Shown: positions 3,471-42,716 of the stretch, one piece after another
Numbering within the stretch: position 1 is the stretch's first letter
Layout: each line of letters opens with the position of its first letter
Origin: a virus
Direction: 5' to 3' (one strand)
Virus record (IMG/VR): IMGVR_UViG_3300046009_006031
Coordinates: 1-42,834 of that record
Length of the DNA stretch: 42,834 nucleotides
Program-made: the position numbers and the translations under genes
Notes under the pieces: model-generated
Database searches by the model: none
Told to the model about the DNA's origin: nothing
Seen by the model: the letters and a program-made list of their open reading frames with translations, nothing else

Positions 3471-3504
3471 ACGCCTATGATATACTTGTACTAGTACATT
3501 AAAA

Positions 3505-3638
3505 TATAGAGTTCTCAATGGAGGGGAAAAAAGCGAGGGAAATGGTTACGGCAACAACCTTCCCACTTGTATGAAAAACTACATTAGTCAGCAATATAAT
3601 CGCCGATAAATATTGCTCCCTCCCTTGAGAACTTTATA
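3505..3638 (+). ncRNA. structured RNA: long stem, multiway junction, possible kissing loop
   Basis: The outer stem pairs 3505-3525 with 3618-3638 at 20 of 21 positions. Inside, 3537-3547 pairs with 3556-3564 (two-base bulge), leaving loop ACGGCAAC. A second hairpin pairs 3590-3597 with 3610-3617, eight perfect pairs, leaving loop AATCGCCGATAA. The loops contain CGGC (3549-3552) and GCCG (3602-3605), which are fully complementary and could kiss. A weaker arm at 3565-3588 completes a four-way junction. It lies between yopX and the NSG-repeat gene on the transcribed strand. I recognise no known riboswitch or ribozyme core. Confidence 0.65.
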
Positions 3639-3665
3639 TCTAATTATTAACATAATATTATTTAT

Positions 3666-10902: not shown

Positions 10903-11322
10903 TTATTTTCTAAGGGCTTCAATATATGCTTTTAACTCTTCAAATCCATAGAATACTTCAGCTAATTCATTACAACTTCTTAAATTATGCAACCATTCTT
11001 TCTGTGCTGGACTAAGTGTAGGGTATGCTTTTCTCTGTCGTTTAATTTCGGCAAATAATAGTATATTATGTCTTTTACCTACCCACCAATAGGGAATAAT
11101 AATTACATAGTCTGGAAAGCCACTTTTTACCCCTATACGCTTGTTTCTTTTCTTAACTTTAAAACTAGTTGTAAATGTTTCCATTGGGATATGTGTATAT
11201 ACAAACCCTAATCCGTTTAAGTATTTTACAATTAAATCATATTCCTCATCTTCAAGAGGTATTGTTGGTTTGCCTTTTCTTTTAGCTTCTATTATTTTTA
11301 GTTCTGCTTCTGATATTCTCAT
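10903..11322 (-). CDS. VRR-NUC domain nuclease
   Basis: The start at 11322 (MRISEAELKIIEAKRKGKP, 139 residues) is used. The frame is open to 11427, but that extension runs through the terminator hairpin at 11361-11397. The core matches VRR-NUC, a PD-(D/E)XK-type nuclease: KSGFPDYVIIIP (Asp in the PDY/PDL position), then LLFAEIKRQRKAYPTLSPAQ (E-x-K), KEWLHNLRSCNELAEVFYG and a final helix. Phage stand-alone VRR-NUC proteins are thought to resolve or trim branched DNA. An AT-rich -10 (TATAAT near 11335) may give it its own weak promoter. Confidence 0.85.
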   Translation of the reverse strand: MRISEAELKIIEAKRKGKPTIPLEDEEYDLIVKYLNGLGFVYTHIPMETFTTSFKVKKRNKRIGVKSGFPDYVIIIPYWWVGKRHNILLFAEIKRQRKAYPTLSPAQKEWLHNLRSCNELAEVFYGFEELKAYIEALRK

Positions 11323-11360
11323 ATATTTGTATATTATAATATTTGTTATATTTTGGCAAA

Positions 11361-11397
11361 TAAAAAAACATAGAAGGCTGGGAAAACCTCCTATGTT
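11361..11397 (-). terminator. intrinsic terminator ending the noncoding RNA
   Basis: Leftward, AACATAG (11391-11397) pairs with CTATGTT (11367-11373), with extra AGG/CCT pairs inside, followed by a run of T at 11362-11368. It separates the structured RNA cassette from the VRR-NUC gene. Confidence 0.8.
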
Positions 11398-11655
11398 TAT
11401 GTCAAATGGATGAACCCTAATAATCATCCTTAGTTATTATATCAAACACAAATGCTGTTGGCAAAGAATTTTGTAGCCTTTCGCTAAAAAGGAGTATAGT
11501 ATGACCAAAGTTTGAGTGCGAGGTGAGCTCCAGTATTAATTTCTCAAGACTAATACCCTCTAAGTTGGCAGGAACTTTACAAAATTCTTCACAAACAGCA
11601 TTCGTGGGGATGATGAAAGATTTCAGTATGTATCAAAAAGAGCTAATAAGATTAC
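11361..11655 (-). ncRNA. structured noncoding RNA with own promoter and terminator
   Basis: Between the promoter at 11662-11690 and the terminator lies about 290 bases with no ORF but strong pairing. 11447-11459 pairs with 11594-11606 (12 of 13). After an internal loop, 11464-11475 pairs with 11578-11589 (12 perfect). Inside are 11477-11481/11488-11492, 11508-11512/11573-11577, and 11533-11538/11551-11556 extended by GAGG/CCTC (11520-11523/11557-11560). This gives a branched RNA on one long stem. It is not a tRNA or tmRNA. A closing stem with a large open centre faintly recalls 6S RNA, but I cannot match it. Confidence 0.6.
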
Positions 11656-11661
11656 ATTGAT

Positions 11662-11690
11662 AATGTATCATATTTGTTAATTTTTGTCAA
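11662..11690 (-). promoter_or_regulatory. promoter of the structured RNA
   Basis: Leftward TTGACA (11685-11690), a 17-base spacer, TACATT (11662-11667). It sits just before the endolysin stop codon and points into the noncoding RNA. Confidence 0.75.
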
Positions 11691-11693
11691 GTC

Positions 11694-12476
11694 TTATCTT
11701 AAATTAGTGTCTGCAAAATCTTGTATTGTTCTTTTAGCTTCATCTAATTTAGCTTGTGTAAAGTTTACTAAGTTTTGATATTTATTAGAAACTGTTGTTA
11801 TGTATAATGCTGGGTTTTCGTTTTTGTGGTCTTGTACTACTTTTCTCCAGTGGTCTATTGTTTCTTGTTTTGTTTTATTTTCTGCATACCATACAAATTG
11901 TTCTGTAAATTTATCTATATCTGGATATCTGTTTTGAATATATATTGAAGCTTCAGGTATTTCTACCAATAGTGCAAACGCTACTTCTTGTGTTCTTATT
12001 ATGTATTCTGGTGTTCCTTGTGGAAATTTCTTTGACATAGTTATATTTTCAATTAATACTCCTAATTTATTTGGCAATGGTTTAGCACTAGTCTTTTCTA
12101 AATCTAATACAGGATTGGTTCTAGCAACTTCTTTTTCACTACCTCCATATACAAAATGAAAGAAATCCATATTCCAATTTTCTTGTGTAGCTGGATGTGT
12201 AAAGCCATTAGCTAACATCTTGTCTCTTACCTCATTAAAGTTTTGAATATCAAATGCTAATCCTCTTCGGTGATTAGAATTAGTTGTCCAACTTGTGCCT
12301 TTATCTACTAATGCCTGTTGTTCTGATGGACTTCTAAAACTACCAGTTCGTGGTACTACTATTGCCTCAGGAACTTTTTGTAAAGCCCTTAATGCATCTT
12401 CCCGACCATAGACCCTTCCTTGATTATATTTGATATTATTGTATGTAATGGCTGGTCTATCTACATAAAACAACAT
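11694..12476 (-). CDS. endolysin, M15 D-Ala-D-Ala-type peptidase
   Basis: A 260-residue peptidoglycan peptidase. Residues 1-115 form an M15 (VanY-like) domain: RSPSEQQALV at about 48-57, the zinc motif SNHRRGLAFDI (His 69 and Asp 76), and the second metal site MDFFHF (Asp 104, His 107). It probably cuts cross-link peptides. Residues about 130-260 are a helical domain of unknown family (TPEYIIRTQEVAFALLVEIP, then EQFVWYAENKTKQETIDHWR). There is no signal peptide, so it needs the holin gene lying nine bases upstream. It also co-exists with the early transglycosylase, giving two different cell-wall enzymes. Confidence 0.85.
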   Translation of the reverse strand: MLFYVDRPAITYNNIKYNQGRVYGREDALRALQKVPEAIVVPRTGSFRSPSEQQALVDKGTSWTTNSNHRRGLAFDIQNFNEVRDKMLANGFTHPATQENWNMDFFHFVYGGSEKEVARTNPVLDLEKTSAKPLPNKLGVLIENITMSKKFPQGTPEYIIRTQEVAFALLVEIPEASIYIQNRYPDIDKFTEQFVWYAENKTKQETIDHWRKVVQDHKNENPALYITTVSNKYQNLVNFTQAKLDEAKRTIQDFADTNLR

Positions 12477-23578: not shown

Positions 23579-24304
23579 TTATAAACTTAAGTCTAAAACT
23601 TTATTCACAGATTTCTTTTTATCAAAGTAAATCTTGAAATCCGCTAATTTATAATACATTTTGTAGGGAGTTGTTGCAATAGGGGCATATTGTTCACCTT
23701 GTACACTAATAACTTGCTTTACCATTCTAATTGTATCTTCATACCCAAATTTCTTAATCATATCTTCACAAGCCTTTCTTTGAGTTTTATTTCCATATTG
23801 AATACTTGGATTTATATTAGCAAATAATTCCATAACATCTACTATTTCCTGCGAAAATTTGTTTTCGCTAGTATTATCAGTCTTATTATTATTATCAGTC
23901 TTATTATTATTATCAGTCTTATTATTATTATCAGTCTTATTTATGGTGATACTTTTGCCTACTTGGCTTTTTTCCTCCTTGGCTTTTCTGTCACCTGGCT
24001 TTTCAGCCTCCTGTGTCTTTTTATCACTTGGGTCAAAAAAAATATTATATATTATTCTACCTGTACTTAATTTTATTCTTTCAAGCAGTCCATATGTTTC
24101 TAATTCTTTAAGAGCAGTTCTTATTGTTACCTCACCTTCCTTCATATCTTTTGCTATTCTATCAAATGAAAATTGATAGTTAGTTGGTTTGGAATATAAA
24201 TAAGCCCATAATAATTTTGCTTTCATACTTATTTTAGTATTGGTTATTATTTTATTTGGAAATTGTGTATAACCTGTATCTGGTTTTGCTCCTATAATTG
24301 CCAT
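23579..24304 (-). CDS. replication initiator-like (RepO/DnaD-type) protein
   Basis: The start at 24304 (MAIIGAKPDTGYTQFPNKII, 241 residues) is chosen; the frame runs to 24376, but that extension lies in the terminator hairpin. Residues about 1-95 form a winged helix (MKAKLLWAYLYSKPTNYQFS, FDRIAKDMKEGEVTIRTALK, LETYGLLERIKL), as in phage replication O proteins. A linker with about four KTDNNN repeats follows, then a helical C-terminal domain (VMELFANINPSIQYGNKTQR onward) possibly contacting the host helicase loader. It likely binds the origin, perhaps near or in this gene. No helicase or primase is encoded, so host enzymes are recruited. Confidence 0.75.
   Translation of the reverse strand: MAIIGAKPDTGYTQFPNKIITNTKISMKAKLLWAYLYSKPTNYQFSFDRIAKDMKEGEVTIRTALKELETYGLLERIKLSTGRIIYNIFFDPSDKKTQEAEKPGDRKAKEEKSQVGKSITINKTDNNNKTDNNNKTDNNNKTDNTSENKFSQEIVDVMELFANINPSIQYGNKTQRKACEDMIKKFGYEDTIRMVKQVISVQGEQYAPIATTPYKMYYKLADFKIYFDKKKSVNKVLDLSL
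23873..23942. repeat. 18-base minisatellite inside the replication gene
   Basis: About four copies of an 18-base unit (ATTATCAGTCTTATTATT on the + strand) encode the KTDNNN linker. As iteron-like direct repeats within an initiator gene it may also be an origin element, as in lambda O, but AT-rich coding slippage explains it equally well. Confidence 0.8.
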
Positions 24305-24319
24305 ATATTTTACTTTATT

Positions 24320-24383
24320 TAATAATAAAAAAGTCCTTTGGCAAAACCCCGAGATTGCTCTCAGGAGGTTCGTCAAAAGACTT
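24320..24383 (-). terminator. long-stem terminator ending small RNA B
   Basis: Leftward, 24364-24383 pairs imperfectly with 24331-24354 over a long stem with a GAGA/TCTC tip, ending GGACTTTTTTATTATT. It lies just upstream of the replication gene start at 24304. It could also act as an attenuator for that gene. Confidence 0.75.
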
Positions 24384-24460
24384 TTCTAATTCAAGTTATT
24401 TTGTGTAGATAAGTTTTGAACCTTTTTGTCTTGCCCTGTTTAAAGTCTTCAGCTGACTAT
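24320..24460 (-). ncRNA. small RNA B / attenuator leader
   Basis: A promoter at 24467-24495 and the terminator at 24320-24383 enclose about 140 bases with no ORF. The 5' part is unstructured and purine-rich (AAGACTTTAAACAGGGCAAG). AAGTC-type sequences in it could pair with the terminator's stem (GACTT), giving a possible antiterminator. Since the replication gene follows directly with a 15-base gap after the T-run, control of rep by attenuation is the simplest reading. A free-standing small RNA is the alternative. Confidence 0.5.
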
Positions 24461-24466
24461 GCACTT

Positions 24467-24495
24467 ATATTATCACACTTTCCCAATTCTGTCAA
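24467..24495 (-). promoter_or_regulatory. promoter of small RNA B and the replication gene
   Basis: Leftward TTGACA (24490-24495), a 17-base spacer, TAATAT (24467-24472). It directly follows the terminator at 24502-24547. Confidence 0.82.
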
Positions 24496-37757: not shown

Positions 37758-39212
37758 TTATCTTCTAGTATTTCTAATACTTCTAGCCATTAGTTTTCTT
37801 AATTCTCTAGGTCTATTTTGGTAATAAGTCATTTGAGATAGGGTATTAAGTTGAGAGGGGGTAATAACTTTCTTACCCCATTCACCCAAAGCACCAGGAG
37901 TAAGTACAGTAGCACCAGTTCTTAATGCATCGGCACAGTGAGAAAACTCATCGTGAACAGGGTCTTTAAGATAGACATTCATCTTTTCATTCCATTTACG
38001 ACGATACATTTTAAGTTGGTCAAGTCCTTTTTCGCAATAATCAGCGTGGAAGTAGGCAGTAGTAATAATTCTTTTAACACCTTCAATCCCATCGTGAACA
38101 GCAGGGATAGCAGATTTTTCTGACATATTAAGTTGTACATTATCTTCACCAAACAAATCTTTAAGAGTAGATATACGAGACACACCAGTAGATAATTCTC
38201 TAACTCTACCATCGTGAGGGATATATTGCACACCTAAGACAAAGTTTCTATCTTTAGCAAGTTCATTTAAGACATCATAATAATGTTGGAAAGGTTCGTC
38301 CATATTTTCATAATAGCCAATAAACCTAACTTCACGACCAACTTGTTGATATAACCAAATAGCCATAGCATCGTCCATACCTAAATCCCATAGCCCATTA
38401 ACAGGAACAGAAGGTTCAATAGGAAATCTAATAACTCTATTATCTTGATAGGCTTTATCTATTAAATCGCCATAGACACTACCTTTAAGTTGAAAAGAAG
38501 TCCAATCACCATATCTCCATTGTTTATATAGTTCAGGTTCACTTTCTTTAATAGACTCAAGATACTGCATATAATCAGGAGTATTAAGAAGAGAAGGGTT
38601 ATCTTCAACAGAGGAGGGGATAAAGACTCTAGTACCACCATCAGAGGCATAATAAGTTTGAGCAGGAGGTTTCCCTTCAATAAATCTTTTCTTGACCCAC
38701 ATATGACCGACACCATTAGGGTTAGTAGTACAGAATATTTGGGCAGCAAGACCAGGAATAGTAGACCTACAAGACCCTAATAGCCTCATATAGCGAGTTT
38801 CAGAAGGAATTTGTGTTAACTCTTCAATAAGTATTTTTTGGTATTCGTGACCCTGATATTTACTATAAGCATCTTCATCGCCAAGATGACCAGTTCTAAT
38901 TTTAGCACCAGAAGGAAAGACAAACTCAGCAGGTTGCCCAATTCTTTTAGCACCAAGTACAGTATACATTCTTTCAGCTCTATCCAGCCAATCGCCTAAA
39001 TCTGTAGCATTTAATCTAATAACAAGACCTCTATAAGCAGGATTAGAGATATATTCAGGTTCAACCATCCAAACAATCCCAGCATCAGTTTTACCACCAC
39101 CTCTAGCACCACCAAACAATATTTCTTTTTCAGACCTACTAAGAGCTTCAGTTTGAGCCCCAGGATGCGGTTCCCAGATATATTTTTGTTTTTTAGCTAA
39201 TCTACTAGGCAT
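37758..39212 (-). CDS. terL: terminase large subunit
   Basis: This 484-residue packaging motor has an N-terminal ATPase with Walker A GGARGGGKT (Lys 41), Walker B ILIEE (127-131), and a coupling segment IFCTTNPNG near 161-169. The C-terminal RNase H-type nuclease has GLWDLGMDDAMAIWL near 272-286 (first Asp), IPHDG near 335, and DEFSHCADALR near 427-437 (last acidic site). Lengths and order are standard. The leader TACACTAC lies three bases before the ATG. Both a TTGACA-type promoter and the late promoter upstream can drive it. Confidence 0.96.
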   Translation of the reverse strand: MPSRLAKKQKYIWEPHPGAQTEALSRSEKEILFGGARGGGKTDAGIVWMVEPEYISNPAYRGLVIRLNATDLGDWLDRAERMYTVLGAKRIGQPAEFVFPSGAKIRTGHLGDEDAYSKYQGHEYQKILIEELTQIPSETRYMRLLGSCRSTIPGLAAQIFCTTNPNGVGHMWVKKRFIEGKPPAQTYYASDGGTRVFIPSSVEDNPSLLNTPDYMQYLESIKESEPELYKQWRYGDWTSFQLKGSVYGDLIDKAYQDNRVIRFPIEPSVPVNGLWDLGMDDAMAIWLYQQVGREVRFIGYYENMDEPFQHYYDVLNELAKDRNFVLGVQYIPHDGRVRELSTGVSRISTLKDLFGEDNVQLNMSEKSAIPAVHDGIEGVKRIITTAYFHADYCEKGLDQLKMYRRKWNEKMNVYLKDPVHDEFSHCADALRTGATVLTPGALGEWGKKVITPSQLNTLSQMTYYQNRPRELRKLMARSIRNTRR

Positions 39213-42329: not shown

Positions 42330-42447
42330 AAAACAAAAACCTTGTATGCTATTTACGAGAAACCTACGGAGCCCCACATACAAGGAATTATATTGTCTCA
42401 AGAACTTCTCGATATTCATGTTTAAACCACGACGTAAAAACATTGTA
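42330..42447 (-). ncRNA. small RNA C with terminator at 42330-42385
   Basis: A promoter at 42453-42481 transcribes about 118 bases that end in a clear terminator: CCTTGTATG (42377-42385 complement) pairs with CATACAAGG (42340-42348 complement), nine pairs, then TTTTTG. The hairpin loop is long (28 bases) and G-rich, with GGGGCTCC. A 31-codon ORF (MNIEKFLRQYNSLYVGLRRF) overlaps the stem but reads through the terminator, so the unit is more likely noncoding. Function unknown. Confidence 0.5.
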
Positions 42448-42452
42448 TATTA

Positions 42453-42481
42453 ATACTAACATAAGCCCTCCTATATGTCAA
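42453..42481 (-). promoter_or_regulatory. promoter of small RNA C
   Basis: Leftward TTGACA (42476-42481), a 17-base spacer, TAGTAT (42453-42458). The -35 and spacing are ideal; the -10 is one base off. Confidence 0.7.
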
Positions 42482-42680
42482 AACAAAAAGGGTACTTTCG
42501 TCCTAACGGTTGATTTCCCCTCAATGTTTATCTAAAAGTCATCGCTACGAACAACACCTTTAAATAAGTATTTATAACTCCTTACAGATATACACCCAGG
42601 ATTGCCTAGTTGTAGTCTATAAGGGTGTTTTACAGGGAGCTACCCCAACCATACACTTACAGCTGATATGTGTATGGACA
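42482..42680 (-). ncRNA. structured RNA D near the genome junction
   Basis: About 200 bases without a good ORF. Leftward order: hairpin CCATACAC/GTGTATGG (42648-42677 region), a GGGG/CTCCC-type small hairpin, then ACACCC (in 42627-42635) that can pair either with GGGTGT (about 42590-42597) or, as AACACCCTTA, with TAAAGGTGTT (about 42556-42566). These are mutually exclusive pairings. It ends at a short GAAA-loop hairpin and T-run (42485-42505). Alternative pairing suggests a switch; no known riboswitch core is recognised. Confidence 0.4.
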
Positions 42681-42687
42681 TATATTA

Positions 42688-42716
42688 TATATACCATACT
42701 TTATAATCTTTTACAA
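42688..42716 (-). promoter_or_regulatory. possible promoter of RNA D
   Basis: Leftward TTGTAA (42711-42716), a 17-base spacer, TATATA (42688-42693), with TATAAT overlapping at 42684-42689. It is weaker than the other TTGACA-type sites. Confidence 0.45.

Follow-up and report, generated by a model that had tools for sequence, protein, structure and literature searches.

Comparative analysis indicates that the minus strand at positions 11690-11361 of a 42,834-base virus record (the whole of which is hereafter called the window) encodes a genuine structured RNA, which is conserved in a small clade of phages and falls into no known family. The predicted structure, comprising a 29-pair helix and an inner hairpin, was shown by compensatory changes to be maintained by selection in four related phages, where it is served by the same kind of sigma-70 promoter. 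The locus most likely specifies an independently transcribed noncoding RNA, for which we infer a function in trans. The gene order endolysin, promoter plus structured RNA, and VRR-NUC nuclease (Pfam PF08774) was common to the window and three relatives, the IMG/VR contigs 3300016466_000283, 3300043420_000615, and 3300042691_018372, all from uncultured phages, whose proteins were 79-81% (endolysin) and 78% (VRR-NUC) identical to those of the window. The coordinates are collected in Table 1.

Table 1. Features of the RNA locus and related genes in the window, with pairings given in window coordinates
Feature	Position	Strand	Remarks
Endolysin gene (phrog_465), upstream	11694..12476	(-)	
RNA promoter, TTGACA-17-TACATT, TG before the -10 hexamer	11662..11690	(-)	TTGACA at 11690-11685, 17-nt spacer, TACATT ending at 11662; kept in L128:15351, L131:14505, L133:12475
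5′ leader of the transcript, expected start near 11655	11608..11655	(-)	Weakly conserved, 60-66% identity
P1 5′ arm	11578..11606	(-)	29 pairs with 11447-11475, of which 4 show double changes
P3	within 11504..11569	(-)	GCCAA 11569-11565 with UUGGU 11508-11504; invariant
P4	within 11504..11569	(-)	GAGG 11560-11557 with CCUC 11523-11520; invariant
P5 hairpin	11533..11556	(-)	Stem 11556-11550 with 11539-11533; double changes at 2/7 pairs, pairing intact throughout
Possible pseudoknot	11512..11547	(-)	P5 loop UUGAG 11547-11543 with CUCAA 11516-11512
Palindrome GAGCUC, 6 nt, possible self-pairing dimer site	11525..11530	(-)	One paired change
P6 hairpin	11477..11492	(-)	Conserved UUAGCG in the loop
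P1 3′ arm	11447..11475	(-)	Pairs with 11578-11606
Intrinsic terminator	11358..11398	(-)	14-pair stem 11398-11366 and T-rich tail; window only
Second promoter-like site, TTGCCA-17-TAATAT, before VRR-NUC	11331..11359	(-)	
VRR-NUC nuclease gene (PF08774), downstream	10903..11322	(-)	
Large terminase gene	37758-39212		

The closing helix P1 emerged from a strand-neutral repeat search, in which its arms (29 nt each, 86% Watson-Crick complementary, 102 nt apart) ranked first among the inverted repeats of the entire 42.8 kb. The first-pass annotation had described a closing stem of more than 20 pairs, and the 29-pair P1, with its compensatory changes in the relatives, agreed with that description. 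Folding of the 311-nt transcript gave -79.5 kcal/mol (z -4.6), a value that none of 100 shuffled sequences reached, while the z-scores were -4.8 for the 162-nt core of the window and -7.1 for the core of the relative L005. The folding energy of the sense strand was the lower one in every sequence compared, a result in favour of RNA on this strand and not of a DNA cruciform.

Covariance analysis among related phages, proposed as a check in the first-pass annotation, revealed compensatory change at 8 pairs that had been altered on both sides. The alignment comprised the window and three relatives and thus only three distinct RNA sequences, since L004 and L006 are identical. In these, the modelled structure of 56 pairs (51 nested and 5 in a pseudoknot) was retained in 167 of 168 cells (99.4%), pairing fell to 34-49% in controls with slid partners, and the count of double changes was reached by none of 500 column shuffles. 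The support was concentrated in P1, in which 4 pairs showed double changes, 4 were changed on one side, 20 were invariant, and 1 had a broken cell, and in P5 with its 2 double changes. The RNA core of the relatives was 75-77% identical to that of the window. When set against the fourfold-degenerate sites of the neighbouring endolysin gene (63-75%), the conservation of the core (71-75%) was no higher; the case therefore rests on covariation. That L004 and L006 match perfectly was considered as a sign of strong RNA conservation and dropped, because the identity covers a recombined stretch that includes an equally identical VRR-NUC gene.

The 168 pair cells consisted of 153 Watson-Crick pairs, 14 G-U pairs on the minus strand, no A-C pairs, and 1 other combination. 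Since DNA, like the opposite strand, would have mismatches in place of the 14 wobble cells, the functional form is most likely a minus-strand RNA, with the qualification that the inner helices were picked on the sense strand, so that the lean toward G-U is partly by construction. The same count bears on the idea that the inverted repeat, as the highest-ranking one of the record, acts at the level of DNA as a cruciform, an origin, or a packaging site. Because every one of the 14 wobble cells is a G-U pair on a single strand, the other having none, and because a conserved promoter is directed into the repeat, this idea is hardly credible.

The bare promoter pattern occurred 9 times across the window against 8.6 expected, which is not above chance. 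The TTGACA-17-TACATT promoter claimed for the locus nevertheless proved to be present and gained weight from the three relatives, which keep TTGACA-17-TATATT at the equivalent spot. The claim of about 290 bases without a reading frame also held, as comparison of the window with the relatives revealed no conserved ORF on either strand of the locus. On the minus strand, the only ORF of at least 30 aa was the VRR-NUC frame mechanically extended upstream (from 11427), and a 45-aa GTG ORF on the plus strand was not retained in the relatives. Elsewhere in the window, the genes for tRNA-Gly and tRNA-Met (42136 and 42327, minus strand) each carry a consensus-like TTGACA promoter of their own. Shine-Dalgarno motifs are nearly absent at the gene starts of the window, despite its TTGACA/TATAAT-type promoters.

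The inner domain is less firmly defined than P1. The several inner hairpins reported in the first-pass annotation were sustained for P5, which covaries and keeps all its pairs; P2, P3, and P4 are neither supported nor refuted, because they are invariant in all sequences. Single-sequence folds of the relatives arranged the inner domain differently. The strands of the possible pseudoknot read UUGAG/CUCAA in the window and UUGAC/GUCAA in the relatives, representing one compensatory exchange, and because column shuffles yielded 0.56 such helices on average, the exchange is not significant alone and the pseudoknot is merely plausible. If P4 and P5 are stacked, a linker of three bases would be too short to reach from P4 to the pseudoknot strand; P4 and the pseudoknot may then be mutually exclusive, or the pseudoknot contact may form between molecules. 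The palindrome is GAGCUC in the window and AAGCUU in the relatives and thus stays palindromic through two changes, which represent a single event of two transitions that could arise fairly easily by chance. A switch from palindrome to palindrome served as evidence for dimer contacts in the OLE and GOLLD RNAs, the two RNAs studied in which such loops were seen (PMC12286853). Overall, support is weak for the inner helices P2-P4, for the pseudoknot, and for a dimer site at the palindrome, all of which are plausible elements.

Intergenic hairpins of phage T7 are cutting sites of the RNase III type, and the nearly perfect 29-pair duplex between two same-strand genes could likewise be a processing site at which the late lysis transcript is cut from the downstream message. 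We consider this improbable, because the duplex has its own conserved promoter and encloses a covarying hairpin and invariant blocks that mere cutting would not need.

The relation of the RNA to the nuclease gene differs between the window and its relatives. In L004, L005, and L006, a gap of about 20 nt separates the end of the RNA from the VRR-NUC ATG and no terminator intervenes, whereas the window has about 100 nt extra, holding an intrinsic terminator (a pattern found once against 0.4 expected) and a second promoter, TTGCCAAAATATAACAAATATTATAAT, whose 16-mer CAAAATATAACAAATA recurs in the RNA promoter in two relatives. The terminator of the earlier description was thus recovered in the window as a 14-pair stem and is missing from the relatives; by the same token, the term "self-contained" suits the window and does not extend to the three relatives, where the RNA reads into VRR-NUC. 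A further small unit, for which the window has no clear match, lies directly after VRR-NUC in the relatives (L128:16021-16140; also L131 and L133) and consists of a TTGACA promoter, about 90 nt, and a strong terminator-like hairpin, AAGACCAGA..TCTGGTCTTTTT.

This arrangement raises the question of whether the RNA is a cis-acting leader of VRR-NUC, either as a 5′ UTR fold that governs how the nuclease mRNA is translated or how stable it is, or as an attenuator governing read-through of the terminator in the window. The co-occurrence of RNA and VRR-NUC in all four phages and the short distance to the ATG in L004, L005, and L006 speak for such a leader, and the leader-like placement in three of the four phages also counts against a gene acting in trans. 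In the window, however, the terminator and the second promoter separate the two, so that VRR-NUC is uncoupled from the RNA, and the RNA structure is still intact, which favours a trans-acting role over a pure leader while also allowing a cis role in the relatives. Moreover, the conserved arms lie outside the terminator, and no alternative terminator or antiterminator pairing with the core was seen. We rate the leader as a somewhat unlikely reading. The order of promoter, structured RNA, terminator, and nuclease gene in the window also recalls ToxI and an RNA antitoxin preceding its toxin gene, as in type III toxin-antitoxin systems. Such a system is very improbable here, since the RNA is free of tandem repeats, the nuclease belongs by Pfam to VRR-NUC and not to the ToxN/CptN/TenpN endoribonucleases, PADLOC gave no match, and the relatives are without the terminator.

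The absence of a recognised family, which had been claimed together with the suggestion of an Rfam search, was confirmed with Rfam 15, which gave no match near the locus at gathering or permissive cut-offs (best chance match E 4-9) and matched two tRNAs alone in the window. GOLLD and ROOL, which are encoded by phages and prophages, are structured noncoding RNAs with unknown function that form homo-oligomers by cryo-EM (PMC12286853). The window RNA resembles them as a structured orphan phage noncoding RNA, its dimer formation being a guess, and differs in its far smaller core (about 160 nt, where many GOLLD RNAs exceed 800 nt), in its location away from tRNA genes, and in having no Rfam covariance match. 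The prohead (packaging) RNA of phi29 has two arms that follow a closing helix, and possibly intermolecular loop complementarity, and the window RNA likewise has a closing helix and a loop complementarity that could be intermolecular; unlike in phi29, there is an ordinary large terminase far off in a 42.8-kb genome, and Rfam gave no match, so that we do not count the RNA as a prohead RNA. 6S RNA is a long regulatory RNA closed by a stem, as is the window RNA, but the latter has a branched inner domain in place of a large central bubble in a single hairpin and again no Rfam match. A retron RNA, suggested by the UUAGC motif, was rejected, as we noticed none of the listed ORFs to be a reverse transcriptase and the motif is at the wrong end.

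Searches for homologues returned the three relatives and nothing else that fitted. Neither 50,697 named phages nor plasmids yielded a homologue, and the exact 24-nt arm was absent from viral contigs. The core motif CTCGCANTCAAACTTTGG occurred in IMG/VR contigs in the three relatives and in four matches of unrelated context, and a second motif, GTTCNTGCCAAN{0,2}TTAGAGG, in the same three and in six contigs without the element, none of which gave a real match to the model; one core motif was absent from 84,980 prokaryote genomes. The covariance model, which was built on three sequences and could miss distant homologues, recovered the three known relatives alone from 50 terminase-related and similar records and had no match in the named Manatee Spring relative or in three distant IMG/VR relatives. 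In 380 genomes from the phylum of a Patescibacteria MAG carrying a related terminase, its sole match lay inside an rRNA methyltransferase-like coding frame and was dismissed as chance. Profiles of endolysin and VRR-NUC gave no or weak partial matches in more distant relatives, which therefore offered no syntenic place to inspect. With no Rfam match and no homologue outside the four phages, the RNA is a clade-restricted orphan, confined as far as searched to one small phage clade. The large terminase of the window is related to those of TM7, Pelagibacter, and other phages, with TM7 phage DolZOral124_53_65 and the Manatee Spring phage at 44-49% over part of the protein, and terminase matches in genome collections were scattered over MAGs of many phyla. 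The capsid protein matched Pfam Phage_capsid_4, and the window also encodes RecT and a methyltransferase.

Several other small elements were noted in the window. At 3502-3641, a closing stem of 20-24 pairs (ATATAGAGTTCTCAATGGAGGG / CCCTCCCTTGAGAACTTTATAT) surrounds about 92 nt (z -6.9 on the plus and -6.0 on the minus strand) in a second noncoding element, whose stem is not conserved in the relatives. The stretch 42330-42481 (minus) resembles a small RNA gene, with a TTGACA-17-TAGTAT promoter, about 120 nt, and the end CCTTGTATG..CATACAAGGTTTTTG, and the noncoding stretch 42490-42700 (minus) ends in a T-run and contains 73 nt that are 81% identical in the relative L132. A promoter followed by about 190 nt at 24305-24495 (minus), 80-85% conserved in the relatives with TAGTCAGCTGAAG shared just after the promoter, is likely the leader of the gene at 23579.

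On balance, we regard the locus as probably a phage gene encoding a structured noncoding RNA, with its own promoter and an inner domain acting in trans. The claim of a dedicated noncoding RNA gene draws on the covariation, the conserved promoter, and the lack of a conserved ORF, and the two tRNA genes of the window, likewise with promoters of their own, add support; it is the best reading, if unproven, because the relatives lack the terminator and read into VRR-NUC in a leader-like layout. Host RNA polymerase would transcribe the RNA from the sigma-70-type promoter, giving a transcript of about 290 nt in the window phage, whereas in the relatives the 3′ end might arise by processing at the closing helix, or transcription might continue into VRR-NUC to give a joint mRNA. 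A compact inner domain of about 100 nt, which may be pseudoknotted and may pair with another copy of the RNA, would be shielded and displayed by the closing helix and would bind a phage or host protein or RNA in trans during infection. Quite unlikely, in our estimate, is the bolder reading of a new class of phage RNA machine, in which an independently transcribed RNA of about 160 nt, closed by the 29-pair helix, pseudoknotted inside and dimerising through its palindrome, would target the host or competing phages in trans at the time of lysis; the phage group would then be one that uses several self-contained small RNA genes.

The reach of the finding is limited, because the searches made placed the RNA in a single small clade. 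Orphan structured phage RNAs with strong covariation are uncommon, and this element is small, with clear boundaries and a core of about 160 nt. Since the four phages provide both coupled and uncoupled forms of the RNA and VRR-NUC, action in cis or in trans is directly testable.
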